Shown here: positions 1,560-35,718 of the stretch, in pieces
Layout: each line of letters opens with the position of its first letter
How positions within the stretch are numbered: the first letter of the stretch is position 1
Virus record (IMG/VR): IMGVR_UViG_3300045922_000337
Span: 1-40,521 of that record
DNA: 40,521 bases
Strand: one strand, 5' to 3'
DNA from: a virus
Notes under the pieces: model-generated
The model's input: only the letters and a program-made list of their open reading frames with translations
Databases searched by the model: none
What the model was told of the DNA's origin: nothing
Made by a program: the position numbers and the translations under genes

Positions 1560-4052
1560 ATGAAAGTGACTGATGTTGCTCTGTCTATGATCGAAGCCCA
1601 AATCCAAGCCACACGAATGGGCCGTCCTAATGCTGCTCGTGGAATGCTCAGGGATTTAGCCTACGCCCAGAAAATCCACGTCCAGAACCGCAAGAATTTG
1701 GCAACCGAACCCACTCCAACCCCTGTTCCGTCTGGAAAGACTCCCGACGAAGCCTTCAAGTTGCTTTATGTCGCTTACACCGATGCGATCGAACGTGCCC
1801 AAAACGGTGACAAGCAAGCCGAAGAGGAAGCCGACTACCTCTATGATTTGATGGATGAGTATGGCTATCTCGATGCCAAAGATGTCAAAACTCTTTCATC
1901 GTTGCCGGACAATGTGCAATTCATCACCCTGATGGATTCAGGGGCGTGGACTCGCTACGAAGGGAAACGAGGCGGAAAAGGTTGGAAGAATTCCAGCACG
2001 GGCCGAATTATCTACACCGATTCGGAGTATGCTCCCGGTCATCGCCGACGCCAACAAGAAGCCAGTCACTCGAAGGCCAGCGAGCTCTCCGAAAAAATCT
2101 GGGAGGCCCGTAACAGTGGGCAAGAAATCTCGCACGAACACCTTCGAGAGTTGGCCGATCACCTACCGGCACTCTCGAAGGAAAAGCTCAAATTTGTTCG
2201 TGATACCCTGATGACCTCGTTTGGGAACGCTCGCCGACGTGATGAGATGCTCAAGGCCCTGCAATCCCACATTGCGCGGCGGATCAGTGGGGAACACCAA
2301 GAGCCCAAAGAAGAAGAACCCACACCCAAACCCAAGAAAGCCAAAACGAAATCGGATGTCAAGCTCCGCGAGAATGGCACTCCCCACCAACCCGACAAGA
2401 ACGATGTCTACACGGTCAACCCGTCGCAGATTCATGTTGATCCGAAACGCTTCCAGTACAAGGTATCAGGTATTGGCAAGGATGGGGTGACTGATGAGCT
2501 GAAAGGGGTCAAGACGTGGAACCCCGAGCTAGGTGGTGTGCTGTTAGTGTGGCGAGACCCAGCGGACGGGAAGGATTATGTCATCAATGGTCACCATAGG
2601 CACGAACTCGCCAGTCGGTTGGGGGCGGGTCAGATCAATGTGCGATACATCGATGCCGCTACTGCTGAAGAAGCCCGTGCCCGAGGGGCACTGGCCAATA
2701 TCGCAGAAGGACGCGGAACTGCAACGGACGCCGCAAAATACTTACGGGATACGGGGGCAGACATCGAACACCTGCAAAGGGCAGGTGTGTCCCTGTCGGG
2801 GCGTGTCGCTGCCGATGCAATGCAGTTACGCGACCTCTCGGATCAGGCCTTTAATCGCATGGTCCAAGGGGCAATCCCTGAGGAAACAGCCGTGGCCGTC
2901 GCTCGGCATTTAAAAGATCACGGCCTGCAGGACAAATTGTTTAGCCATCTCGAAAAACGAGCAGAAGAAGGTAAAGACTGGTCGCGTCAACAAATTGAGA
3001 TGGCCGCCAAAAAAATGGCGAATGCTGGCAAGGTCACCACAACAGAAAATACTCTCTGGGGCGACATCGAAGACGAAAAATCCACCTTCGACCAAGAAGT
3101 AGAACTCGAGGCCCATGTCGCAAGGGAATTGGCCAAACGAGCCAATGACTATCAAGCTATCAGTAATCAGAGCCGTGCGGAACGTGTGGCAGATGCGGGG
3201 AATCAGATTGCTGTAGAAGAAAATAAACGCCGACTACAGAAAGCCCAGCAAGATGCCGAAAACTTCCATCGGGAGATCCACTTGGTTGGCGAACATAGTC
3301 GGATCACAAAACAGTTTGCCGCCGAACTGGCTGCGGCTAAAACAAAGAAGGAGAAAGAGAATGTCAAACAAAGATACCTCGCCGCAATCGACGCACTTCA
3401 CAACTCAGACCAAACCCAAGCCATTGACACCGGAACAACTGCGGCGAGTGGAGCAGCAACATCGGGAGATGATGCGGCTGCCGGAAGTGGACCCAATCGA
3501 TCTGACGTCAGATCAGAACTCAGATCGGAAACCGGCACAGAATCAGAAAGAAAAGTAGCGTTCGATGAAGAATTGCCGACGACAAAACCAAAGACGACAA
3601 AACCAAAGACGACCCCCGAACCAGAGCGGTATGCCTCACCGCTATCAAATGCACATTCGCGAGAAGAAAAACTCAAGGTATTGAGAGATTACATCGCCCA
3701 AGAAGAAGGAATAACGAGCGGCCCGCGAACCCTCACACAAGAATCGTTCACCAGACCTGATATCCCGCTGCCCATTTCGGAGGGCGAATTATCGGATTTG
3801 GGGCAGCGGATCAAGGATAAAATCGCTTCCTCTTCTTTCGGTACCCCAACGACCCAACTGTACGAGCAGTTCGGTCAGCCGCTGGGGTTGAGCAAACACG
3901 ATTTCATGCGTGCATTATGGAAACTGAAACAACAAGGATCATTACGCTTGTCACAATGGTCGGGGATGCCGGACGATATCCCAGACCCAGACCTCGTCAT
4001 ACCCCATAGCAGCAAGCTCATGGCTTATGTTCACGCAGACCTAGGTGAATGA
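1560..4052 (+). CDS. Large head-region protein with ParB-like domain
   Basis: An 830-residue multidomain protein directly after the portal, where Mu- and SPP1-like phages carry a head morphogenesis (gpF/gp7-like) gene. Residues about 285-390 look like a ParB/Srx-fold domain: NPSQIHVDP, then INGHHRHEL (342-350) and an alanine-rich helix. ParB-fold phage proteins bind DNA or have nuclease/CTPase-type activity, but I cannot tell whether this one is catalytic. Around 129-154 is a glycine- and tryptophan-rich segment (RGGKGWKNSSTGR). Lysine/proline linkers lie near 247-265 and 670-690 (a short KTTKP repeat). A predicted helical domain ends the protein. The last codons and stop lie inside the 14-bp tandem repeat at 4041. 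The portal context suggests a head protein; the role is uncertain. Confidence 0.6.
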   Translation: MKVTDVALSMIEAQIQATRMGRPNAARGMLRDLAYAQKIHVQNRKNLATEPTPTPVPSGKTPDEAFKLLYVAYTDAIERAQNGDKQAEEEADYLYDLMDEYGYLDAKDVKTLSSLPDNVQFITLMDSGAWTRYEGKRGGKGWKNSSTGRIIYTDSEYAPGHRRRQQEASHSKASELSEKIWEARNSGQEISHEHLRELADHLPALSKEKLKFVRDTLMTSFGNARRRDEMLKALQSHIARRISGEHQEPKEEEPTPKPKKAKTKSDVKLRENGTPHQPDKNDVYTVNPSQIHVDPKRFQYKVSGIGKDGVTDELKGVKTWNPELGGVLLVWRDPADGKDYVINGHHRHELASRLGAGQINVRYIDAATAEEARARGALANIAEGRGTATDAAKYLRDTGADIEHLQRAGVSLSGRVAADAMQLRDLSDQAFNRMVQGAIPEETAVAVARHLKDHGLQDKLFSHLEKRAEEGKDWSRQQIEMAAKKMANAGKVTTTENTLWGDIEDEKSTFDQEVELEAHVARELAKRANDYQAISNQSRAERVADAGNQIAVEENKRRLQKAQQDAENFHREIHLVGEHSRITKQFAAELAAAKTKKEKENVKQRYLAAIDALHNSDQTQAIDTGTTAASGAATSGDDAAAGSGPNRSDVRSELRSETGTESERKVAFDEELPTTKPKTTKPKTTPEPERYASPLSNAHSREEKLKVLRDYIAQEEGITSGPRTLTQESFTRPDIPLPISEGELSDLGQRIKDKIASSSFGTPTTQLYEQFGQPLGLSKHDFMRALWKLKQQGSLRLSQWSGMPDDIPDPDLVIPHSSKLMAYVHADLGE

Positions 4053-5508: not shown

Positions 5509-6479
5509 ATCCCATCCAAATAGCAGGTGATGCCCACGGGCCCATCCTTCGACGAGCAGGCTCTCTCCGTTGGGGCGAGTGGCAAACATTGGGGTGCAAT
5601 GGGCACAACCTGATTGCTTCACGATTGTGGCGCATGTGGCGTGATCCTCGCGATGGTCTCACCTCTAACACCGGTGGGGGAGGAAGTGGGGGAAGCGGAG
5701 GTTCTGGAGGGTCAGGGGGCAATGGTGGATCAGGTTCGGGGGGAAGTGGCGGATCAGGAAGTGGAGGAACCCCGTGGACTGGTGGCAACGCTTATCCCTA
5801 CCAAGCTCAAATAGTCGAGCAAGTGTGTCCGATCTATGAAGACGATCCTTCAATTTGGACGACCGATGCTTTCGGTGGCGATGTGAGTGGGACTTACTCG
5901 AATCTCTCGGTGATTAGGTTGCAAGGCAGACCGGTAAGTTCAACGGCTCCTTCGACAGGGCAAGCCCTCTTGTGGAACGGAACAAACTGGATACCCGGCA
6001 ACGTGAGTGGCGTACCTGTTGGGACTGTGGCTGCTTTCCTCAACACAGTGCCGTCGGATTGGTTGGAGCTTGTCGGGGGGACTGCCAACCGCATAACCGA
6101 TGCGAATTTGTTCGCCTACGTAGGGACTCTTTATGGTGCGGGGGATGGCTCGACGACGTTTGGGATTCCCGATGCTCGGGGCCGAACTTTCATTGGGGCT
6201 GGAACTGGACCGGGGCTTACTTTGCGGACTCTCGCTGCAACTTTGGGGGCTGAATCGGTTGCACTTAGCTCGGCAAACAACGGGGCGCACACGCACGGCC
6301 CATCGGCTGGATTTACTGGGTTCTGGCTTTGGAATCCGGCAGGACCGACGACGATGGCTGCGGGCGCGAATTGGAATATGCAAGCCGCAGAAAACACAGC
6401 AACCGCATCAAGTGGATCGGGGACGCCCCACGAAAACATGCAACCTTCCCTTGTGATTCGGTGGGCAGTTAAACGGTAA
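5505..6479 (+). CDS. Tail fibre protein with tail collar domain
   Basis: The likely start is the ATG at 5505, which overlaps the preceding stop as ATGA; an in-frame upstream ATG at 5436 lies inside that gene. The 324-residue product has three parts: a conserved-looking head of about 55 residues, a pure Gly-Ser-rich linker of about 32 residues, and a C-terminal phage tail collar domain (PF07484-like). The collar is shown by VGTVAAFLNTVPSDWLELVG, FGIPDARGRTFIG, the GAHTHG histidine motif and the terminal PHENMQPSLVIRWAVK. Such proteins form fibre tips or collars that touch the host surface. The linker probably gives the receptor-binding end freedom to move. Confidence 0.85.
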   Translation: MNPIQIAGDAHGPILRRAGSLRWGEWQTLGCNGHNLIASRLWRMWRDPRDGLTSNTGGGGSGGSGGSGGSGGNGGSGSGGSGGSGSGGTPWTGGNAYPYQAQIVEQVCPIYEDDPSIWTTDAFGGDVSGTYSNLSVIRLQGRPVSSTAPSTGQALLWNGTNWIPGNVSGVPVGTVAAFLNTVPSDWLELVGGTANRITDANLFAYVGTLYGAGDGSTTFGIPDARGRTFIGAGTGPGLTLRTLAATLGAESVALSSANNGAHTHGPSAGFTGFWLWNPAGPTTMAAGANWNMQAAENTATASSGSGTPHENMQPSLVIRWAVKR

Positions 6480-7147: not shown

Positions 7148-7699
7148 ATGAGTGCATCAGGAACAGGATCGGGCACACGTCGAAGGATTGCAGGGTTTAC
7201 CGTGCAGACTCGGCTCGTGAATGTTCTCGTGCCAACAGCAACCCCTCCGGGGAATGCGACGTGTGCGACCAATCCGACGACCTGTTGCCCAAGCGGATCG
7301 GGTTCGGGTGGGTCTGGGAGTGGCAGTGGGTCTGGAGTTTCACTCGTTTACATTTCCGGATGTGCTTACGGCTACCCACAAACAATCTATGGCACATGGG
7401 GCGGGTTTTCAGGGTCGTGCAGTTGCTTTGTGGGATCGTTCCCGTTAACGTGGAACGGGACGGCGTGGGTGGGAACCTTCACAGGATGCGGAACGGGAAG
7501 CCCCAATGGGCCCATCACAGTAACAGTCACTCCGCCAGCAACATCTGCCGGGACTTGGGCATTTGCGATAACAGGAACGAACTATACCTTTATCACAAGT
7601 CCCACTTACCCGCTCACTTGTGGGGTTCTTTTCAACACAACCAGTATTACAGTTTCGGGAGCTTGTAGCGGGGCTACGCAACTCGGCGTCACGGTGTAA
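7148..7699 (+). CDS. Cysteine- and glycine/serine-rich structural protein
   Basis: A 183-residue protein. Residues about 1-45 are an N-terminal arm, then a CC pair and a Gly-Ser linker of about 20 residues, then a beta-rich domain with TWNGTAWVGTFTGCG and many Cys, Thr and Gly. There is no signal peptide. The linker resembles those of the collar protein and the tape-measure-like protein, so a virion role (fibre or surface adhesin) is likely. No named family is recognised. Its ATG abuts the preceding TAA. Confidence 0.5.
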   Translation: MSASGTGSGTRRRIAGFTVQTRLVNVLVPTATPPGNATCATNPTTCCPSGSGSGGSGSGSGSGVSLVYISGCAYGYPQTIYGTWGGFSGSCSCFVGSFPLTWNGTAWVGTFTGCGTGSPNGPITVTVTPPATSAGTWAFAITGTNYTFITSPTYPLTCGVLFNTTSITVSGACSGATQLGVTV

Positions 7700-18324: not shown

Positions 18325-18347
18325 GGGTGTGAACTATCTCACACAGC

Positions 18348-18451
18348 GCCACGTGGGGAATCGAACCCGTTTTTCCGTTTGGTCAACCGAGAAGGTGTTT
18401 CCGCCGAAACACCTTCTCGAACCAATCGGGTTACACCAGTAACTCCGTGGC
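18348..18451 (-). ncRNA. tRNA-like element A with long arm
   Basis: Read on the minus strand, GCCACG (18451-18446) pairs with CGTGGC (18353-18348) as an acceptor-like stem. GTTAC/GTAAC (18430-18443) forms a D-arm-like hairpin with a TGGT loop. A T-arm-like GGG-TTCGATT-CCC lies at 18355-18368. In place of an anticodon arm is a very long hairpin: a 14-bp perfect stem (18388-18401 with 18406-18419, 4-nt loop) extended by TTGGT/ACCAA. So a cloverleaf can be drawn, but no 7-nt anticodon loop exists. It lies between two early genes. It may be a processing signal or a decoy rather than a tRNA. Confidence 0.5.
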
Positions 18452-18497
18452 AATTCTTTCGAGAATTTCGAGCGACAAACAAAACTGTCGCTCGAAA

Positions 18498-19241
18498 TTA
18501 GGCATCCATCCTGTAATGCTGCTCCCAGTACCGTTTGACACATCCCCAGAACTCTTCCCCCTTTTCGAGGATTAGGGCTTGGAGCTCGGGGTCGGGTCTC
18601 ATTTCGACAATGGCGAGTTGTTGCTCGGTAGAGAATCGTTTGTTGTCGGTGAAGCTCACATACCACAGTAAATCACTTCCCGTTGTAAGTAGCTGGTACT
18701 GGCATTGAGTCTGGTAGTAGCTCGGCACTAGACCTGCGAGCGCCACCGAGTGCATTTCCCAGTTGGGACATTTGATTTCGAGTATCTCACCCGACGTCTT
18801 GTTATAACCGTCGAGAGATACCCGCATCCAATCACACTCGTCGTGCTGCACACAAACGGGGGTGTAGGCTTCCCCTTTAAGTTTCTCGAACTGATGTCGA
18901 GCTTCGGGTTCCATGCGTGAACCCCGTCGCATCGAATAGTTAGCGAGAACCACATCATTCTTGCGAGAGGTTTTCAATGCGAAGACCACATCGGCCCGTG
19001 AATCCGTGAAAGGCCATTTATCACCGAGGACGATAGCCCCGATGTCGGAGCCACCAAGACCTTCGGATCGCCACTTGTGCCACTGGGGAGTCCCTTGTTC
19101 GAGTTGCAGGAGTTTCATTTTTGTTCCTCGATCTTTGCCTTCGATAGTGAGTAATTCTTCGTAGTAATGCCCCAACGTGATGATGATTGCATCACACATT
19201 GTGAGTTGGCGTTTTTCGGTAGCGGGTTCCAGAGTTGTCAT
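18498..19241 (-). CDS. YqaJ-family exonuclease (viral recombinase)
   Basis: A 247-residue protein matching YqaJ/lambda-exonuclease nucleases, which resect DNA 5'-3' to expose single strands for annealing. The motifs are in order: QGTPQWHKWRSEGLGGSDI (49-67), RRGSRMEPEA (105-114), then catalytic D144 (VSLDGY) and E155-x-K157 (LEIKCPN), then the helical YYQTQCQYQL. The first 41 residues are an extension; M42 is an alternative start, but AGAGG 7 nt before 19241 and the ATGA overlap with the upstream gene favour the long form. It forms a recombination pair with the Sak4-like ATPase three genes upstream. Confidence 0.85.
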   Translation of the reverse strand: MTTLEPATEKRQLTMCDAIIITLGHYYEELLTIEGKDRGTKMKLLQLEQGTPQWHKWRSEGLGGSDIGAIVLGDKWPFTDSRADVVFALKTSRKNDVVLANYSMRRGSRMEPEARHQFEKLKGEAYTPVCVQHDECDWMRVSLDGYNKTSGEILEIKCPNWEMHSVALAGLVPSYYQTQCQYQLLTTGSDLLWYVSFTDNKRFSTEQQLAIVEMRPDPELQALILEKGEEFWGCVKRYWEQHYRMDA

Positions 19242-19762
19242 TTTTGGGCCTCTTGCAAGAACTTCTGAAGCTCTGCTTCCGGGGTGTCTCCAAGCTGAGC
19301 AAGCAAGAACAATCTTTCGCGGGTCTCCTCGGCATCAAGGAACACTTGGCGAGCTTCGCGATACATCACGATTAGCTCGGTGTTTTCTTGCAGGAACTCG
19401 CAATGATCAACGGCCATCGTGAATGTCACGCCTTCAAGTTCGACTGGTTCTCCGCCTTCATAATCAACGCAAACTTTGATGATCTCGTCACTCAACTGAA
19501 TTCCATCAGACTCGGACTCGTAGCAAGCAGTCCCGACGATACTATCCCCACACTTGCGGTGACTACTCGGCGGAAGAAGCCACTCACGCCAGTGGGTCGG
19601 TTGGTAGTTGTTGCACACTGTCCCATCAATGAAAAACCATACCCCTGAGTCCCATTGCAAGGGAATCTCACGATCTCCCCAGATGGGAACGTCGATCTTG
19701 GTTCGCACGAATTGACCGTTCTTTGGTGGATTCGATTTGCAGTTAAACCATACTTGCTTCAT
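19238..19762 (-). CDS. DUF551-like protein
   Basis: The start is placed at 19762, where ATG overlaps the stop of the upstream gene (ATGA). The 174-residue product begins with a segment like DUF551: PPKNGQFV, then GVWFFIDGTVCNNYQPTHW and REWLLPP, the PTHW-LP ending being characteristic. The C-terminal half is acidic and helical with a possible coiled coil. DUF551 proteins are small phage proteins of unknown function. It lies inside the coupled early operon. Confidence 0.55.
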   Translation of the reverse strand: MKQVWFNCKSNPPKNGQFVRTKIDVPIWGDREIPLQWDSGVWFFIDGTVCNNYQPTHWREWLLPPSSHRKCGDSIVGTACYESESDGIQLSDEIIKVCVDYEGGEPVELEGVTFTMAVDHCEFLQENTELIVMYREARQVFLDAEETRERLFLLAQLGDTPEAELQKFLQEAQK

Positions 19763-19956
19763 GCTGGGTACTCCTTTGAAGCCCGCTTGTCGGAATCGAA
19801 CCGACTCAGAATTTCCGGGGGATATTCTGTTCCGTCCCATGCCACAAAACCCCCATCGGAAAATGGCATCAGACTAGCGGACATAATTAACGGGCGATTC
19901 GAACCGATGTTTTGTTTGGCCCACATCTCTGCATCTGCAAGCGTGCGAAAGAGCAT
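19759..19956 (-). CDS. Small early protein, unknown
   Basis: A 65-residue product whose ATG overlaps the stop of the ATPase gene (TGATG) and whose stop overlaps the next start (ATGA). Double coupling supports real translation. Composition is normal (FVAWDGTEYPPEILSRFD). No domain is recognised. Its 3' part contains a perfect T-arm-like sequence that I regard as chance. Confidence 0.55.
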   Translation of the reverse strand: MLFRTLADAEMWAKQNIGSNRPLIMSASLMPFSDGGFVAWDGTEYPPEILSRFDSDKRASKEYPA

Positions 19957-21335
19957 CAGTGGCTCGCTTGCTGCGCCTTTGACTCGGCAAAATTCGAGAG
20001 CTTGTTTACTTCCTGCAACAGCAATGCAATCTCGACTCCCGACAGATGCACGATCTTGGTTTCGTTGGTGATAACCCGATTCAGTTTCCCTTTGGCAAAC
20101 TCACGAATATCGGGCCACGTCATGTTCTTCTTGTGGGCAGCTTCGAGGAGCTCCTGAGCGATAGTGCCTAGACTCGCTTCCAGATCGCGACTTCCACTCG
20201 AAGCGGGTTCGGAATCGTCAATCGGATCGTTTTCCCACGGCTCCATTGGAACCGATCCTTTCTGCAACTCCGAAGGCGTTGTCGTGGTCTCGCTTGCCGA
20301 TGGGGTCGGTGTGGGATTGGGGCTTGGTGTGGGCGTAACGGGTGAGCCACCATCTCCACCCTTACCGGTGTTTGGTGGATTCTTGCGGAAAGACTCCAAG
20401 ACCTCGGTTGCTTGGTCTTGTGTTAAGTCCTTGTGGCTTGTGATGTGGTTGCCGTATTTAGCTTTCAACCGAGTTACGAAAGTCTCGAACTTGATCTTCC
20501 GGGAGCTGCACTCCGTCTCGATTTCTTGCCACAATGTGTTCTTGGGTTCTCCGCCAATATGCCCCTTCTTTTTCGCAACTGCGAGAGTTTGCTCAAAAGT
20601 TCGCCACCCTTGTTCGGGACTGTTTCCGCATCGGATAACATCAGGCAAACCGTAGCGATTACCAGCCACACACGAGAGACTACCCGTTGTCCGAATGATT
20701 CGATCGCCCGTGCGAACCTTCTTCTCGTCGGTGAATTCCATCTCGAAGTCGCCGTGCATGATCACGTCGGCCCACTTATGGGTCAATGTCCAGAGCTTCT
20801 CGATCCCCTCGGGCCGGAACTGATCGTAGTCATCCCCTTCGGGATTGTTGACCGACTTGATCTTCGTGTGGGCCAACAGGATTATGTTCATCCCTCGGCG
20901 AGTCCGACATTCATCGAGCATTGCCAGCAATCGGACCCACTCCACCGAGGTTGCAAGGTCACCTTTCCCAAACTGACCATACTTGGCGACCTTACCCTCA
21001 AAGTCTTTCCGGAGGATGTGTTGGAATGCCAATCGCTCGGCCCCATTCGCCGTGTCAATCACCAGAGTTTCGTAGGAATGATCTTCCTTGAGAAGTGCAT
21101 TCACACAATCGATCAACTGCATCCAAGTCTTGCAGTCATCTGGGAAGTGAGCCGTTTCGGGGATCCGACCTGCTTCGAGAAGCGAGAGCAATCCTGTCTC
21201 ACCCTCGGTCATGATGAAGATGGGGTTCTTGGCAAACGCGGCTTGCGAAGTCTTACCGAACTTCTCACGAGCATAGAAATATACCCGATAGGGCATCGGT
21301 TTGGCCTTCGTTGCAACTTTGGACATCAGCGACAT
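19956..21335 (-). CDS. Sak4-like RecA-fold ATPase
   Basis: A 459-residue protein with a RecA-like ATPase domain (AAA_24/Sak4 type): P-loop EKFGKTS (24-30), EGETG (44-48) in the next strand, Walker B LVIDTANG (91-98) and an ILLAHT sensor segment. Sak4 proteins assist single-strand annealing with an exonuclease and SSB. A Pro/Ser/Thr-rich linker (about 325-370) joins a C-terminal helical domain of about 80 residues. AAGGAG precedes the ATG at 5 nt. With YqaJ and RusA it forms a full recombination set; no SSB is seen, so the host protein may be used. Confidence 0.8.
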   Translation of the reverse strand: MSLMSKVATKAKPMPYRVYFYAREKFGKTSQAAFAKNPIFIMTEGETGLLSLLEAGRIPETAHFPDDCKTWMQLIDCVNALLKEDHSYETLVIDTANGAERLAFQHILRKDFEGKVAKYGQFGKGDLATSVEWVRLLAMLDECRTRRGMNIILLAHTKIKSVNNPEGDDYDQFRPEGIEKLWTLTHKWADVIMHGDFEMEFTDEKKVRTGDRIIRTTGSLSCVAGNRYGLPDVIRCGNSPEQGWRTFEQTLAVAKKKGHIGGEPKNTLWQEIETECSSRKIKFETFVTRLKAKYGNHITSHKDLTQDQATEVLESFRKNPPNTGKGGDGGSPVTPTPSPNPTPTPSASETTTTPSELQKGSVPMEPWENDPIDDSEPASSGSRDLEASLGTIAQELLEAAHKKNMTWPDIREFAKGKLNRVITNETKIVHLSGVEIALLLQEVNKLSNFAESKAQQASH

Positions 21336-21382
21336 AACAACTCCTTAAAGGAATCACACACTCACAAACACACATAAAAGCT

Positions 21383-21464
21383 GACCTGTCGAGGACTCGA
21401 ACCTCGTGAAGCCCTGAGAGTCACCACCTCGGAGAAAACAGAATAACTCTCACTCGCTCAGGTC
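21383..21464 (-). ncRNA. tRNA-like element B
   Basis: On the minus strand, GACCTG (from 21464) pairs with CAGGTC (ending 21383), and the T arm CGAGG-TTCGAGT-CCTCG (21390-21406) is perfect, with consensus T-loop bases. The element is 82 nt, the size of a class II tRNA, with A as discriminator and no encoded CCA. The interior does not give a standard D arm or a 7-nt anticodon loop; GAGAG/TTCTC with a 10-nt loop is the best arm. It shares GGTGGTGA and ACTCGCT words with element D. It lies between two early genes. Confidence 0.5.
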
Positions 21465-21468
21465 TTGT

Positions 21469-21768
21469 TCACTCACCAATCCCGCCATCACACAGAATCT
21501 CAGCAAGAGACTTTGTGCGGGGGCTTAACTCGCTCGGATCGACCGTCTTCACGGAAGTCGTAAAAAGCAGACTTTCGGAAGGATCGTTTTTCTTTGGAAC
21601 GAACATTCGAATCAAGATTCCCTTCGCCACCGTCGTCACCACCTCGGCAGGGCCTCGTTGTTTGGTCTTGTCCTCGGGTTGATACCACACAGCACTCCCA
21701 GACTTGAAAGTCTGCGAGAGACTCCCATTCGCTTCGGGTTTCGTTTCGGCTTCCACTGTCGCCACCAT
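21469..21768 (-). CDS. Small early protein, unknown
   Basis: The start is set at 21768 because AGGAGG (21776-21781) stands 7 nt upstream; an earlier in-frame ATG at 21822 lies within RNA element C. The 99-residue product contains SGSAVWYQPEDKTKQRGPAEVV, GILIRMFVPKKND and a charged C-terminus. It looks like a small beta-barrel (SH3- or KOW-like), but this is a guess. It is flanked on both sides by tRNA-like elements, which is notable. Confidence 0.55.
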   Translation of the reverse strand: MVATVEAETKPEANGSLSQTFKSGSAVWYQPEDKTKQRGPAEVVTTVAKGILIRMFVPKKNDPSESLLFTTSVKTVDPSELSPRTKSLAEILCDGGIGE

Positions 21769-21796
21769 CGCCAATCCTCCTCTTGGTTGATTCAGT

Positions 21797-21920
21797 TCTC
21801 TCAGGTGGAATCGCACCACCACAACGCATCCTGCGAAGTTCTCGGTTTTGGGTTGCTATCTGCTATCGATCCCATCCCAATGGCAGTCATTGCCACGACC
21901 AAAGGTCTTTCCGTGAGAGA
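21797..21920 (-). ncRNA. tRNA-like element C
   Basis: On the minus strand, a perfect 7-bp acceptor-like stem (TCTCTCA from 21920 with TGAGAGA ending 21797) directly abuts a perfect 5-bp T arm, GGTGG-TGCGATT-CCACC (21804-21820). The 88-93 nt interior has several small hairpins (GACC-TTT-GGTC; TGGCA-ATGAC-TGCCA; TTGGG with CCCAA; CGCA-GGA-TGCG) instead of D and anticodon arms. The T-loop has TG instead of TT at its first two positions. It ends 15 nt before the ribosome site of the gene at 21768. Confidence 0.5.
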
Positions 21921-22007
21921 TTGAGGGTTGCTCTCTACCCCAAAGTCTCTTCGTTTCGTCGAAGTTCCACGTCGCATCATGCGATTCGTGCACTGTCTCC
22001 TATAGCT

Positions 22008-22077
22008 GCATCAAGCCGGAATCGAACCGACGTGAGAGTCACTCGCTGTTCTGACACTCACCACCTTGGATTGATGC
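22008..22077 (-). ncRNA. tRNA-like element D
   Basis: On the minus strand, a perfect 7-bp acceptor-like stem (GCATCAA from 22077, TTGATGC ending 22008) encloses a T arm, GTCGG-TTCGATT-CCGGC, that directly abuts the 3' acceptor strand. Total 70 nt plus an A discriminator. The interior forms one long hairpin (GTGAG-T-GTCA with TGAC-T-CTCAC, 10-nt loop) and has no D arm, resembling armless mitochondrial tRNAs or a viral tRNA mimic. Confidence 0.5.
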
Positions 22078-22085
22078 GACAACTG

Positions 22086-22253
22086 GATGGGGTGAACCAA
22101 ACCCCAAGATCGGAGTGAGAACCCACCCAGTCGTATTCCGTCATGTTTCGTTGTTACTGGGCCGGTTCCCGAACCTGCCCATCTGGTGATGCAAGATCAC
22201 CATCACTACCCTTGTCGATGATCTTGGCACATCGCGAAGCCGAATTCCAGAGC
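22086..22253. other. Structured non-coding stretch downstream of element D
   Basis: No gene is seen. It carries GGGGT-gaaccaa-ACCCC (22090-22106), a two-part hairpin TGGGC-c-GGTT with AACC-t-GCCCA around 22158-22183, and AAGATC/GATCTT near 22193-22226. With elements C and D, about 430 bp between the genes at 21768 and 22254 seem devoted to RNA structure. Confidence 0.45.
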
Positions 22254-22571
22254 TTACTTGCACAGCCCGTGAACCAGAGCTTCGTATTCTTTCGGGGTGT
22301 CTTTTTTCCACGAGATAGTCGGGATCAAAGCAGGAAGAACCGAAATAGCGTCTTTGCAAACCGTGTTGTAAGCAGCTTGCGTGAGCTTCTCTTGTCCAAT
22401 CTTGTTAGCCTGATCGAGGAAAGCAGACTTGAGCCTCTCGGCCTCATCAGGGGTAATCTCGACCGTCACAAACTGAAGGTTTGTTGGCGGCACATCGACG
22501 AACGTCGGTTGATCCGACACAGTGTTCGTTGAAGTCGGTACGCTCTCTGGGGCTTGAATTTCTTTAGCCAT
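22254..22571 (-). CDS. First gene of early operon, unknown
   Basis: A 105-residue protein with AAGGAG 6 nt before the ATG. The N-terminal 35 residues are disordered (Pro, Thr, Val). The rest is helical (EITPDEAERLKSAFLDQANK) and ends with ISWKKDTPKEYEALVHGL. No domain is recognised. It is the first standard gene after the early promoter, its leader peptide and the attenuator-like hairpin, so it is probably among the first phage products made. Confidence 0.6.
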   Translation of the reverse strand: MAKEIQAPESVPTSTNTVSDQPTFVDVPPTNLQFVTVEITPDEAERLKSAFLDQANKIGQEKLTQAAYNTVCKDAISVLPALIPTISWKKDTPKEYEALVHGLCK

Positions 22572-22597
22572 ATTTCGCTCCTTAAAAGCGGTGTTGG

Positions 22598-22642
22598 ATC
22601 AATCAGATGTCCTGATTGATGATGTTGCAGTTTGTTGATTGA
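22598..22642 (-). promoter_or_regulatory. Attenuator-like alternative hairpins
   Basis: In the early transcript, ATCAATCAG and CTGATTGAT (22620-22612 with 22606-22598) form a 9-bp hairpin with a 5-nt loop. An earlier TCAATCA (22642-22636) can compete for the same CTGATTGA strand. The hairpin lies between the leader peptide stop and the ribosome site of the gene at 22571. Confidence 0.45.
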
Positions 22643-22660
22643 GGTCGGGCAGAGTGAAGA

Positions 22661-22678
22661 CTAGGAAGTCATTTTCAT
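22661..22678 (-). CDS. Five-residue leader peptide MKMTS
   Basis: ATG AAA ATG ACT TCC TAG, with AAGGAG (22691-22686) at good spacing, begins about 28 nt downstream of the predicted early transcription start. Followed by competing hairpins, it looks like a regulatory leader peptide rather than a functional protein. Confidence 0.45.
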   Translation of the reverse strand: MKMTS

Positions 22679-22712
22679 GGGGGTTCTCCTTGAAGTATTT
22701 GGTGGTAAGGGT

Positions 22713-22740
22713 AAGATACCAGAATTGAAACTTGTGTCAA
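22713..22740 (-). promoter_or_regulatory. Early promoter, minus strand
   Basis: TTGACA (complement of 22735-22740), a 16-bp spacer and TATCTT (complement of 22713-22718) form a near-consensus sigma70-type promoter firing toward the early genes. The palindrome at 22725-22747 overlaps the -35 and spacer, so repressor binding there should block it. Confidence 0.75.
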
Positions 22741-22747
22741 GTTTCAA
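22725..22747. promoter_or_regulatory. Palindromic operator over the early promoter
   Basis: TTGAAACTTG (22725-22734) and CAAGTTTCAA (22738-22747) are perfect inverted repeats around TGT. The site covers the -35 of the early promoter. It is a likely target of the ribbon-helix-helix protein encoded 100 bp away. Confidence 0.65.
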
Positions 22748-22832
22748 ATAGCAAGATTTTATTATCATTTCATTTTGATAATTGAATCTTGCTATTTGAT
22801 TCATATTGTACAATTTACAGATAGCAGGATTT
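22746..22832. promoter_or_regulatory. Long inverted repeat with third half-site
   Basis: AAATAGCAAGATT (22746-22758) is exactly inverted at 22785-22797, and ATTATCA (22761-22767) is inverted at 22776-22782, giving a nearly continuous AT-rich palindrome. A related half-site GATAGCAGGATTT (22820-22832) lies just upstream of the start at 22844. Three half-sites suggest cooperative repressor binding. Confidence 0.6.
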
Positions 22833-22843
22833 GAGGGAATCGC

Positions 22844-23113
22844 GTGGAGAATACAGAGAAAGGAAACTCGGGCACTGTTCGCCTCGATAGCGACTTGATG
22901 CGAATGCTTCGGCTCATTTGTAATGATCGAGGCATTTCGATGGCCGAATATATTACGCCCATCGTTGAAGAGACGGTGAAGGCGAACTACAAGGCGACCC
23001 TTGACAAGTTGATCGAAGAGCGTGACCAGTTGGGCAGTAGTAGCTCCGACGAGGACGATGAACCGGAACCCGCCCCGAAACCCAAGAAGGGCAAGAAGGG
23101 CAAGAAGGGTTAG
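22844..23113 (+). CDS. Ribbon-helix-helix regulator
   Basis: An 89-residue protein starting with GTG, with GAGGGAA upstream. Residues about 10-48 (GTVRLDSDLMRMLRLICNDR, then GISMAEYITPIVEETV) fit a ribbon-helix-helix fold: a short beta strand and two helices, as in CopG/Arc repressors. A helix follows, then an acidic stretch and a Lys/Gly tail (KKGKKGKKG) that could bind DNA or RNA nonspecifically. It is transcribed away from the early operon, beside three AT-rich operator half-sites, so it is the obvious candidate for the repressor of both directions. Confidence 0.65.
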   Translation: MENTEKGNSGTVRLDSDLMRMLRLICNDRGISMAEYITPIVEETVKANYKATLDKLIEERDQLGSSSSDEDDEPEPAPKPKKGKKGKKG

Positions 23114-23481
23114 TCGTTGCGGTTCGGTCGTTTCTTGCGTTTGAGCCATTTCTTCACTGCGCCTTGTTCGTGTTTTTCTTGTTCTTGTGCTCGCCTTGAT
23201 GCGAAGACAATCTCCTCTTTGTGGGCCCGTTCTACTTCTTCCGCTTGCTGAGCTGCTTGGGCATCGTACTCAGCGAGTTCCAACCCTTCGAGCTTCCGAT
23301 AGCCCAGTTCGTGGGCCACTTGGAGGATCACTTGGGTTAGCTCAATATTCGTGGGGAATCTCCTGCCTTTTGCTTTCAGACTCTCGATATACTCTTGGAT
23401 CGCCTTGAGGTATACTGATTCATCGTCGGTGTAAACCTTCGTCTCTTGGTAGGCTGTCGGCCCCTTGTATCCTGTTGACAT
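23110..23481 (-). CDS. Helical protein convergent with the RHH gene
   Basis: A 123-residue protein with AAGGAGA before the ATG. The first half is mixed (YLKAIQEYIESLKAKGRRFP, then IELTQVILQVAHELGY, which looks like a helix-turn-helix). The second half is a long charged helix ending in a basic tail (KKWLKRKKRPNRND). Its last codons overlap the end of the RHH gene tail-to-tail. Possible DNA-binding early protein; no family is recognised. Confidence 0.55.
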   Translation of the reverse strand: MSTGYKGPTAYQETKVYTDDESVYLKAIQEYIESLKAKGRRFPTNIELTQVILQVAHELGYRKLEGLELAEYDAQAAQQAEEVERAHKEEIVFASRRAQEQEKHEQGAVKKWLKRKKRPNRND

Positions 23482-23523
23482 CGTTGTCTCCTTTGGCTTG
23501 ATTTTCGCAAGCCTTGCGGGAAA

Positions 23524-23757
23524 CTACCGTCGTTTGGGCTTCAACCCGTTCACCCTGTCGAGTACACGTTGGGTCTTCGTTTTACCCGTATCTGACTTCG
23601 GTTCGGGTTCTTTCGGCCTGCCGAAAGCTTGTGATATTCTCGCGGCACTTTGTCCTGCTTGGAATCGTAGGACTGCTTGTTTGCTCGTTGACCACTGCTG
23701 ACCGTTTCGTTTTGCTTGTTGAGGTACTATATCGGCCAAAAATAGTTTCGTCAACAA
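23524..23757 (-). CDS. Small basic protein, start uncertain
   Basis: An open frame of up to 77 codons, beginning with TTG at 23757. Its C-terminal 60 residues look protein-like (QQWSTSKQAVLRFQAGQSAA, then basic RVNGLKPKRR). However, the good promoter at 23754-23726 lies inside the 5' part of the frame, and no ATG or GTG is available after it. Either the promoter serves only the next gene (23481) or translation begins at a non-standard codon. Coding status is therefore moderate at best. Confidence 0.4.
   Translation of the reverse strand: MLTKLFLADIVPQQAKRNGQQWSTSKQAVLRFQAGQSAARISQAFGRPKEPEPKSDTGKTKTQRVLDRVNGLKPKRR
23726..23754 (-). promoter_or_regulatory. Minus-strand sigma70-type promoter
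   Basis: TTGACG (complement of 23749-23754), a 17-bp spacer and TATAGT (complement of 23726-23731) give a near-consensus promoter directed at the gene at 23481. It is back to back with the plus promoter at 23779. Confidence 0.7.
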
Positions 23758-23778
23758 TAATTACATTAAAAAACATAA

Positions 23779-23806
23779 TTGAAAAAATTGTCTTTGTGTG
23801 TATAAT
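23779..23806 (+). promoter_or_regulatory. Plus-strand sigma70-type promoter
   Basis: TTGAAA (23779-23784), a 16-bp spacer and a perfect TATAAT (23801-23806) lie 50 bp before the RHH/AT-hook gene at 23857. The divergent pair is set in AT-rich DNA, a likely autoregulatory site. Confidence 0.7.
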
Positions 23807-23856
23807 TCTGTATTGCGTGGTGTGTCTAATGGGCGAAAAGTTACAGGGAGGCAAAT

Positions 23857-24120
23857 ATGATTGAACTCATGGGAAAAAAGAAGCCAGTTGGAAGACCAAC
23901 AAAAGGCGATCAAGCTGCTGTTCATATTGCTTCTCGGGTGCATCCTGATATTGAGGCTGCAATCGCGGGGGTTGCGGAAGCGAATCGCCGGTCGAAATCG
24001 ACGGAGATCGAAATTGCTATCGAAGAAAGGTTACTTCGACACGAAGCAGTGCTTCGAGAGCTTGGGCTTTGGACAGAAGCCCTTGAAAGGCTCAAGCCAA
24101 AACCACCTTCACCACAGTAA
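23857..24120 (+). CDS. RHH-type regulator with AT-hook-like N-terminus
   Basis: An 87-residue protein with GGGAGG 5 nt before the ATG. Residues 5-17 (GKKKPVGRPTKGD) carry the AT-hook core GRP flanked by Lys, which binds the minor groove of AT-rich DNA. Residues about 24-60 (ASRVHPDIEAAIAGVAEANR, RSKSTEIEIAIEERL) fit a ribbon-helix-helix domain. The gene sits beside its own divergent AT-rich promoter region and next to the first RHH gene, so the two probably make up the transcription switch. Confidence 0.65.
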   Translation: MIELMGKKKPVGRPTKGDQAAVHIASRVHPDIEAAIAGVAEANRRSKSTEIEIAIEERLLRHEAVLRELGLWTEALERLKPKPPSPQ

Positions 24121-24127
24121 CTTCCTG

Positions 24128-24157
24128 CCCCACCCAACCCATTATCTTCGGTGAATG
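24128..24157 (+). promoter_or_regulatory. Leaderless phage promoter
   Basis: CCCCACCC (24128-24135) precedes TTATCTT (24142-24148). CGGTGA then separates the -10 from the ATG at 24155, keeping the 6-nt spacing although the bases differ from CGGGGC. No ribosome site. Confidence 0.65.
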
Positions 24158-26008
24158 CCAAGCATTCTTCCGGGTAACGGCGTTATCTGCACCTACAACG
24201 GGTTTACCTTCGACCCTGCGTGGACAGAGACGCTTACGTGCGATATTTCCCCCAAACTCGACCGCGCCGGTCGAACGGTCAGCCACAACCAGTATGCGAT
24301 CCGCCTTCGCACAGTTATTACTTCCTCCCACCCGACAACAACCGATGCGCTCGTTCAAGATGCGATCCAAAGACTTACCACACCGGGCCAAGACTTCTTC
24401 TTCCAAGATCGCGGATTCGGCACGCTCTCTGTGAATGTGGCAGGGACTCGAAGGAAGGATGTGAAGTGGGGGCCAAAACCAAAGCTCGTGAGCCTCAAGC
24501 ACATTGGGGATAAATACGCCCAAGAGCTCATCTGGCAGGTTGAGGTTGCAACGGTTGATTGCAATGCAGCACGATACCAGAACACTCCCATTGAGTTCAA
24601 TTACGAGGTCATCTACAGTCACGATGAGAATCGGAACACTACCCGTAAAGTGAACGGCACTTTAACAATTGCCCAAACCCGCCAAGCCGGTGGACGGCAA
24701 GTCTTCACGAGTGCTGATGAGTGGCGAGAGAAGATCACCCCTGCCCTGATTGAGGGGTTCAGGAGGGGCCCCGAGTCTTGGAATCTATCCGAGGATAGAG
24801 CGACGATTAAGTTTGATGTGACTGATACCCAGATGGGGCGGTTCTACCCACCTCCGGGGGTCATTTCAGTTAAGGCATCGCGGAGTTGGGATAATAAAGA
24901 GAACATGAACTTTATTGCTTGGCATGGCCGAATTAATGCCGAGTACACTCTCGCAAGGGATGCCGACAATCGGATTGCGTTCCAGCATTTTCGATCTATG
25001 TGTGAGACCTACCTCAAAACAGCCGAAGATCAATTGATTGCTGCGGACATGGTTGATGTTGAGGGTAAGCAAAAAGAGAAAAACAAGGTAATAAAAGATA
25101 TTGCAAGAGTTGCTGGCTTTATCTGGAATCCCGGACTGGCTATCCTTGCTGGGATACAGAAGGATTTTGGTAAAAAACCTGCACAACTACCGATTTCCTT
25201 TTCCGCAAGCGAACCGGAGATTTACGGGCCAAACGTCATTGCTCGTTTTTCGCTTACCGTCCTTCAAGTTGGCTTTCTCCCCGTTTTCCTAACCGCAGGA
25301 CTTTGGTCACCTGTCCCTCAATCGAACTGGAAGCTCTGGGCTCAGAGTATGGCCTTTGGTCCTCGTGCCAGTGGAGGTCTCGCATTCAACCCTCTCGACG
25401 ATGCGATTATTGATGCGTGCCGAGGGGAACCTTCGAGTCTCAAGTTCCAATCTTCAAAACCCATCCCCATTACCATCCTTGGGGGGTCGAACCCTGTTGG
25501 CACAATAAGTCCTGAATCCTCATGGATGGACTACGAAAATAGCATCCGTTACGAGCAAGGCGGCGATGTGGTGTTCCACAATCCCCTCTCCGAGGAGAAG
25601 TTCGCCCAGAACCCTGTTCTTCGTGGCATGGCAGGCCCCCTGAATATCGGTGGCGGAAGGTTCGGCAAAGTCTCCGAGGAGGTTTCCCTCTCGTCCTACG
25701 GGAATGCCCTCAAAGCCAAATCGACAATCTATCGTCGCACAGCTCCGACTCGAAGAGTGGTTATGACGGGCCGAGCCGTTCGAGCCGGTTGGCCTGCCTA
25801 TCCTCCTGAGCTGGTCAGTGTCGGAGGAATCCCTGCGACCTGTATCGGTGGGCCTATTGAGACGAAGGTGGTAGGACATGTGGGTGTGCCGATCTATGCG
25901 TGCCGATGGCGACTCACTTATATCTTGCCCGAAACACCACGGAGTATTGAAGCTCCGAGCGACCCTAATTTCGGGATGAGTAACAACGGTTTATTAGGTG
26001 GATCATAA
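24155..26008 (+). CDS. Large structural (tail/baseplate) protein
   Basis: A 617-residue protein I do not recognise by family. It has many beta-type segments (RLRTVITSSHPTTTD; WQVEVATVDC), no signal peptide and one hydrophobic stretch near 320-340 (VAGFIWNPGLAILAGI). It is driven by its own leaderless promoter and is followed 2 bp later by the tail chaperones. In most siphophages the genes around the chaperones are tail genes, so a tail or baseplate function is inferred. Its separation from the other tail genes (39144 onward and 4153) by the replication half of the genome is unusual. Confidence 0.5.
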   Translation: MPSILPGNGVICTYNGFTFDPAWTETLTCDISPKLDRAGRTVSHNQYAIRLRTVITSSHPTTTDALVQDAIQRLTTPGQDFFFQDRGFGTLSVNVAGTRRKDVKWGPKPKLVSLKHIGDKYAQELIWQVEVATVDCNAARYQNTPIEFNYEVIYSHDENRNTTRKVNGTLTIAQTRQAGGRQVFTSADEWREKITPALIEGFRRGPESWNLSEDRATIKFDVTDTQMGRFYPPPGVISVKASRSWDNKENMNFIAWHGRINAEYTLARDADNRIAFQHFRSMCETYLKTAEDQLIAADMVDVEGKQKEKNKVIKDIARVAGFIWNPGLAILAGIQKDFGKKPAQLPISFSASEPEIYGPNVIARFSLTVLQVGFLPVFLTAGLWSPVPQSNWKLWAQSMAFGPRASGGLAFNPLDDAIIDACRGEPSSLKFQSSKPIPITILGGSNPVGTISPESSWMDYENSIRYEQGGDVVFHNPLSEEKFAQNPVLRGMAGPLNIGGGRFGKVSEEVSLSSYGNALKAKSTIYRRTAPTRRVVMTGRAVRAGWPAYPPELVSVGGIPATCIGGPIETKVVGHVGVPIYACRWRLTYILPETPRSIEAPSDPNFGMSNNGLLGGS

Positions 26009-35590: not shown

Positions 35591-35609
35591 TCGAAGGTTA
35601 AGCAAAAGG

Positions 35610-35666
35610 AAAGGCTAGGCTCGCTACCGAAAAGGGGTTTTACTTCGACCCCCTGCCTTTTCTTTT
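35610..35666 (+). terminator. Terminator between decoration and capsid genes
   Basis: An inner stem GGGGT/ACCCC (35634-35638 with 35648-35652) and an outer AAAGGC/GCCTTT (35610-35615 with 35655-35660) lead into TTTTCTTTT. It probably sets expression levels of the capsid transcript relative to upstream genes. Confidence 0.65.
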
Positions 35667-35718
35667 AACGAAGTATTGCTGGTGAAGTAACAGCGACATC
35701 CCGCTTGGGGTTTCTCAA

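Follow-up and report, generated by a model that had tools for sequence, protein, structure and literature searches.

Anticodon-less tRNA-like elements in the early-operon gaps of a tailed phage: possible mRNA-processing cassettes

Why should a phage keep, in the gaps between its early genes, a series of RNA elements that resemble the upper half of a tRNA and have no 7-nt anticodon loop? The question is raised by a 40,521-nucleotide stretch of viral DNA, referred to here as the window, whose gene families include portal, terminase, capsid, Sak4, YqaJ exonuclease and DUF3987 helicase. An initial annotation had described three minus-strand elements, B, C and D, each joining an acceptor-like stem of 6-7 bp to a 5-bp T arm, in non-coding gaps around one small early gene. 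All three lie where they had been placed, the small gene being 21469-21768, and the set is larger, since two further elements, F and G, had been missed (Table 1). It is almost certain that these five are real tRNA-like or tRNA-derived structured RNAs of one kind. As for what they do, the chances that they are tRNA-derived processing cassettes punctuating the early mRNA are, in our estimate, only a little short of even.

Five elements in the early operon

The early operon comprises the minus-strand genes from approximately 22571 to 15247. The likely promoter in Table 1 is the best minus-strand match upstream of it, and a ribbon-helix-helix gene at 22844 is divergent from it; between that gene and the operon, adjoining the promoter region, lies a long A+T-rich inverted repeat (AAATAGCAAGATT...AATCTTGCTATTT, 22744-22800), which is possibly the operator of the ribbon-helix-helix gene. 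Tandem hairpins are also seen around 22150-22200. Elsewhere in the window, the int-alpA RNA (RF02996, 45 bits, full length) is found at 35608-35674 on the plus strand, directly upstream of the capsid gene, instead of the place between integrase and alpA that the family name implies. The gene starts of the early operon were corrected by their Shine-Dalgarno sites. In particular, the small gene between C and B likely starts at ATG 21768 and not as a 109-aa ORF running into C, and the start of the gene after sak4 is probably ATG 19762 over 19840, which places F in a gap.

Table 1. Positions of the elements, gaps and neighboring features in the window, and of related elements in L012, L013 and L016
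Feature	Positions	Strand	Description
Virus record IMGVR_UViG_3300045922_000337	1-40,521		source of the window, 40.5 kb
Likely early promoter	22713..22740	-	TTGACA-16-TATCTT; consensus match only
Gap	22253-21769		holds D and C
Element D	22008..22077	-	acceptor GCATCAA/TTGATGC (7 bp); T arm GTCGG-TTCGATT-CCGGC, one G-T pair
Hairpin block	21921..21946	-	GACTTTG-GGGTAGAGAGCAACCCTCAA; directly 5' of C
Element C	21797..21920	-	acceptor TCTCTCA/TGAGAGA (7 bp); T arm GGTGG-TGCGATT-CCACC
Small early gene between C and B	21469..21768	-	99 aa; Shine-Dalgarno site AGAGGAGG
Gap	21468-21336		holds B
Element B	21383..21464	-	acceptor GACCTG/CAGGTC; T arm CGAGG-TTCGAGT-CCTCG; middle arm TGAGAGT/ACTCTCA
sak4	19956..21335	-	Sak4-like ssDNA annealing protein (AAA_24)
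Gap	19955-19763		holds F
Element F	19781..19895	-	acceptor GCCCGTT/AGCGGGC; T arm GTCGG-TTCGATT-CCGAC; multi-hairpin interior
Gene after sak4	19238..19762	-	probable start ATG 19762, Shine-Dalgarno site AAAGGAG
Gap	18497-18325		holds G
Hairpin of ~15 bp	18461..18497	-	directly 3' of the yqaJ stop codon, 5' of G
Element G	18347..18452	-	acceptor TGCCACG/CGTGGCG; D-like arm GTTAC-TGGT-GTAAC; long hairpin replacing the anticodon arm; T arm
L013 element	2419-2493		ends 42 nt before the sak4 ATG
L016 element	5819-5897		ends 25 nt before the sak4 ATG
L012 upstream element	5560-5639		counterpart of C
L012 downstream element	7375-7449		just 3' of sak4, the position of F in the window

In B, C and D the acceptor and the T arm form one directly contiguous helix of 11-12 paired positions, which is the stacked helix of tRNA dimensions expected of an RNase P substrate. 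The acceptors of C and D, described as perfect by the initial annotation, are indeed Watson-Crick at seven of seven positions, and that of B consists of 6 bp with an A.A mismatch at the junction. A G replaces the second T in the T loop of C, whose 93-nt interior folds into several hairpins, and D has a single middle arm (9 bp with a U.U mismatch and a 10-nt loop) and no D arm. The acceptor is followed by an A, the commonest discriminator base of tRNAs, in B, C and D and in four of seven related elements. F and G are weaker than these three under a stringent criterion, F having an alternative acceptor (TCCGCT/AGCGGG) and G a short T stem with only 3 good pairs; at the same time, G is the clearest fold of the set, with a folding-energy z of -5.4. 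The words shared by B and D, of 10, 9 and 9 nt (GTGACTCTCA, AGCGAGTGA, AGGTGGTGA), do occur in permuted order, as had been claimed, and the seven 8-mers that the two elements share are matched in none of 5000 shuffles. Separately, B's GTGAGAGT is exactly complementary to D's ACTCTCAC, so that, judging by this complementarity, the B and D RNAs could pair with each other. Directly 5' of D, at 22081-22133 on the minus strand, an acceptor-like pair ACTGGGT/ATCCAGT surrounds a 5-bp hairpin GGGGT-TTGGTTC-ACCCC; it was left out of the count because its loop does not follow the T-loop consensus.

Could such structures have arisen by chance? B alone folds no better than its shuffles (z -0.8), the values for C and D (-2.4 and -1.9) are modest by energy alone, and for any one given T arm a loose acceptor, with six of seven pairs and G-U allowed, is common by chance. 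The signal therefore comes from the T arms and from acceptors paired at 7/7 positions, together with the way these cluster. Namely, a stringent scan of the window gave three matches, exactly B, C and D, as against 0.043 expected in shuffles (Poisson P ~1e-5), and the same scan of eight other phages (297 kb) gave none. A match had to have a consensus T arm of 5 bp, no fewer than 4 of them Watson-Crick, an acceptor with no fewer than 6 Watson-Crick pairs, and an interior of 12-130 nt. What is more, the early operon has four intercistronic gaps longer than 50 nt and every one of them holds at least one element, and in a looser scan four of the five matches fell within these gaps, which make up 1.2% of both strands (P ~1e-7). 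Together with the homologues discussed below, these computed figures for non-randomness and gap placement refute chance for the set as a whole and leave it a next to negligible probability. Within the gaps, the elements end 18-47 nt ahead of a start codon, near the Shine-Dalgarno site; B, for instance, begins 4 nt past the stop of the 99-aa gene and ends 47 nt ahead of the sak4 ATG.

Recurrence and conservation in relatives

Relatives were retrieved with a two-row Sak4 alignment; scans with Sak4, YqaJ or the DUF3987 helicase as a single protein returned none, nor did scans of genome contigs, and a DNA-level search with the stretch 19000-26000 matched no phage record. Three of the relatives, L012, L013 and L016, have Sak4 proteins that are 53%, 42% and 40% identical, respectively, to that of the window, and in all three tRNA-like elements lie beside sak4. 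B is the positional counterpart of the L013 and L016 elements in Table 1. The hairpin block directly 5' of C is identical at 25 of 28 aligned positions in L012, where it likewise stands directly 5' of the element (0 of 300 shuffles); the stems of C and its counterpart differ in sequence yet remain paired. A reading of this block as a conserved peptide (VESNP) was rejected, as the frames soon diverge or stop, and the block was treated as RNA. The L013 and L016 elements, in turn, share their 3' half and the downstream leader (0 of 200 shuffles).

Among the positional homologues, 5-8 of 12 upper-half pairs have changed on both sides with pairing kept. Covariation in the stems, the absence of which the initial annotation had named as a refutation, thus appears to be present, with counts that come from few relatives and are partly circular, because the acceptors were located by pairing. 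The pairs were counted on hand-set structural coordinates; a whole-element MAFFT alignment misplaces the stems. We regard the flanking sequence blocks as an independent and stronger anchor of homology than the pair counts.

The same theme appears in two more distant relatives found by TerL, at 852-932 in L038 and 18961-19022 in L041, each element standing 20 nt before a start codon. The former is followed by TCCA and so encodes CCA; the latter has perfect acceptor, D and T arms and scores 52.7 bits as a tRNA, with an anticodon arm of only CCC-TTAA-GGG. Overall, the L012val, L013b, L016, L038 and L041 elements end 20-42 nt ahead of start codons. For the L012 upstream element and the one at L013 1454-1558, the distance to the next start exceeds 100 nt. 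The gaps at L013 3992-4176 and L016 9723-9977 hold no detectable element, and more distant Sak4 or TerL relatives are mostly without them.

Do the elements, then, act in place, as regulators in the 5'-UTR whose fold a phage or host protein (such as Sak4, a synthetase or EF-Tu) would bind without cutting it, thereby controlling translation of the next gene, or as antitermination signals like the put RNA of HK022? The distance of 18-47 nt from the start codons, near the Shine-Dalgarno sites, would suit such a role, as would the recurrence of the sak4 leader element in three lineages. That said, the interiors of the five elements are unlike each other, and what they have in common is only the generic upper half of a tRNA, as one would expect if a general tRNA enzyme and not a specific binder recognized them; we therefore consider cis-regulation rather unlikely. 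The contrast between the two halves runs through the whole collection. Namely, 11-12 paired positions of the upper half are kept in most elements, whereas the lower halves are not conserved: they are almost canonical in L013 (with a six- or eight-nt anticodon loop), a triloop hairpin in the Val-like L012 element, without a D arm in D and L016, expanded by multi-hairpin insertions in C, F and L013 1454-1558, and a long hairpin in G.

Relation to tRNAs and other tRNA-like RNAs

Neither ARAGORN nor the Rfam tRNA model (RF00005) calls a tRNA in the window, so that none of B, C and D scores as one. Like tRNA genes and degenerate phage tRNAs, the elements have the 7-bp acceptor (7/7 in C and D, 6/7 in B, with reservations for F and G), the 5-bp T arm with its consensus loop and often A73. 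They differ from them in that the D arm is missing or replaced and the 5-bp anticodon stem with a 7-nt loop is absent, just as had been said of their interiors, which are 39-93 nt long and unlike each other. When the words common to B and D were turned into a DNA pattern, it matched ordinary phage tRNA regions, mostly tRNA-Met. Three of the related elements (L013 2419, L012 7375 and L041 18961) score above the RF00005 cut-off, and a tRNA origin is therefore likely. Could all of them be neutral, decaying remnants of tRNA genes once acquired by phages of this lineage? The scores of these three are what one would expect of such remnants, but decay should hit both halves, whereas here the upper halves stay paired and the lower ones have been wholly replaced by stable hairpins, most clearly in G; moreover, a small phage genome has retained elements in four of four gaps. 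We take this explanation to be quite unlikely.

Among known RNAs, the tRNA-like domain of tmRNA is similar in that the acceptor and the T arm are kept and the anticodon arm is replaced by an insertion. An identity with tmRNA was rejected, as none of the five elements has the G3-U70 pair, a tag ORF or an ARAGORN or Rfam tmRNA match. A Plastid-ycf2 match at D was rejected as well, as it lies on the opposite strand, reaches 26.2 bits against a cut-off of 65.7 and is simply the acceptor and T arm in reverse complement. T4 makes, together with its tRNAs, the stable small RNAs C and D of unknown role; they are comparable by description only, as stable phage small RNAs, and differ in lying among real tRNA genes. 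The MHV68 virus tRNAs are viral tRNA-like elements that are processed, and the plant virus TLS is another viral RNA that imitates the upper half of a tRNA (PMC4810235). Here too the likeness is one of description, with no homology claimed, and these systems belong to eukaryotic RNA viruses or are Pol III transcripts.

By presenting a tRNA elbow and acceptor, the elements might also work in trans, as stable mimics or decoys whose targets could be, e.g., host defences directed at tRNAs, RNase P, the CCA-adding enzyme or EF-Tu, and the unusual words common to B and D would fit this. Yet elements without an anticodon loop would not serve against anticodon nucleases, and a decoy does not need to sit in a gap just before a start codon, which makes this role improbable. 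What about attachment or priming sites, both of which the initial annotation had entertained? Phages often integrate at tRNA 3' ends, and tRNA 3' fragments do occur in relatives (L029 8587-8610 and L014 1180-1229). The elements of the window, on the other hand, are five in number within one operon, each with both acceptor strands present and paired, where an attachment site would be one 3' fragment of a tRNA next to an integrase gene; neither an integrase family nor a reverse transcriptase was matched among the ORFs searched. Integration is accordingly unlikely, priming is unsupported, and we would give the two together a very small probability. The L029 and L014 fragments, for their part, are unlike the elements studied here and are probably of the attachment-site type (in G003, beside an integrase-like ORF). 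As readings of the elements, attachment site, priming site, tmRNA and chance were thus all rejected.

A possible role in processing the early mRNA

Of the ideas put forward in the initial annotation, cutting by RNase P and RNase Z appears, from the arrangement of the elements, to be the best supported, because they fill every gap of the early operon longer than 50 nt and because no part of the tRNA is kept other than the half read by RNase P. In mitochondrial transcripts, working tRNAs punctuate the genes; the window is similar in that each sizeable gap between early genes is occupied by tRNA-shaped elements, and differs in that its elements have no anticodons. RNase P binds and measures the acceptor/T-arm stack, and RNAs of other kinds are cleaved too if they offer such a stack (PMC4919913); hairpins consisting solely of acceptor and T arm, phage C4 RNA and mRNAs are among them (PMC11143913). 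Such non-tRNA substrates, i.e. model hairpins, the P1/P7 C4 antisense RNA and operon mRNAs, are like the present elements in offering the stack with no need of an anticodon. They differ in that their cleavage is known, whereas here it is predicted from sequence, and in that here there are several cassettes per operon, one or two per gap, a layout that we have not seen described so far. In the literature searched, mostly without subscription papers, there was likewise no report of tRNA-like elements lying between the cistrons of a phage early operon. None of the five elements is followed by an encoded CCA; a 3' RCCA is helpful and not essential, and RNase P and many hosts manage without an encoded CCA.

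How might processing proceed? In each cassette, the acceptor stacked on the T arm is kept, and the D and anticodon arms have been replaced by other hairpins. The early transcript probably starts near 22713 and runs to approximately 15247. Host RNase P would measure the acceptor/T-arm stack and cut at the 5' end of each cassette, with RNase Z or exonucleases trimming its 3' end. In this way, the polycistronic early mRNA would be divided, each downstream piece acquiring a 5' end 18-47 nt ahead of its start codon, while each upstream message would end near its own stop codon, with the hairpins that immediately precede C, D and G serving to cap the 3' ends so formed. Transcription, cleavage and a benefit to the phage are what we infer from the arrangement.

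The presence of the elements in distant relatives suggests that the phage uses the tRNA-cutting enzymes of its host on its own early message. More generally, a group of tailed phages may punctuate the early operon with dedicated, anticodon-less tRNA-like cassettes, from which host RNase P and RNase Z would produce separate mRNAs with defined ends; we advance this tentatively, with chances clearly below even. If true, a DNA virus would separate its messages by a tRNA-shaped cut signal unrelated to decoding, much as mitochondria do with real tRNAs. There is also a warning for annotation here, as a phage 'tRNA' that has an odd anticodon loop and closely precedes a start codon may in fact be a processing or regulatory element. 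Finally, the set provides natural sequences with which one can ask what RNase P and RNase Z require.
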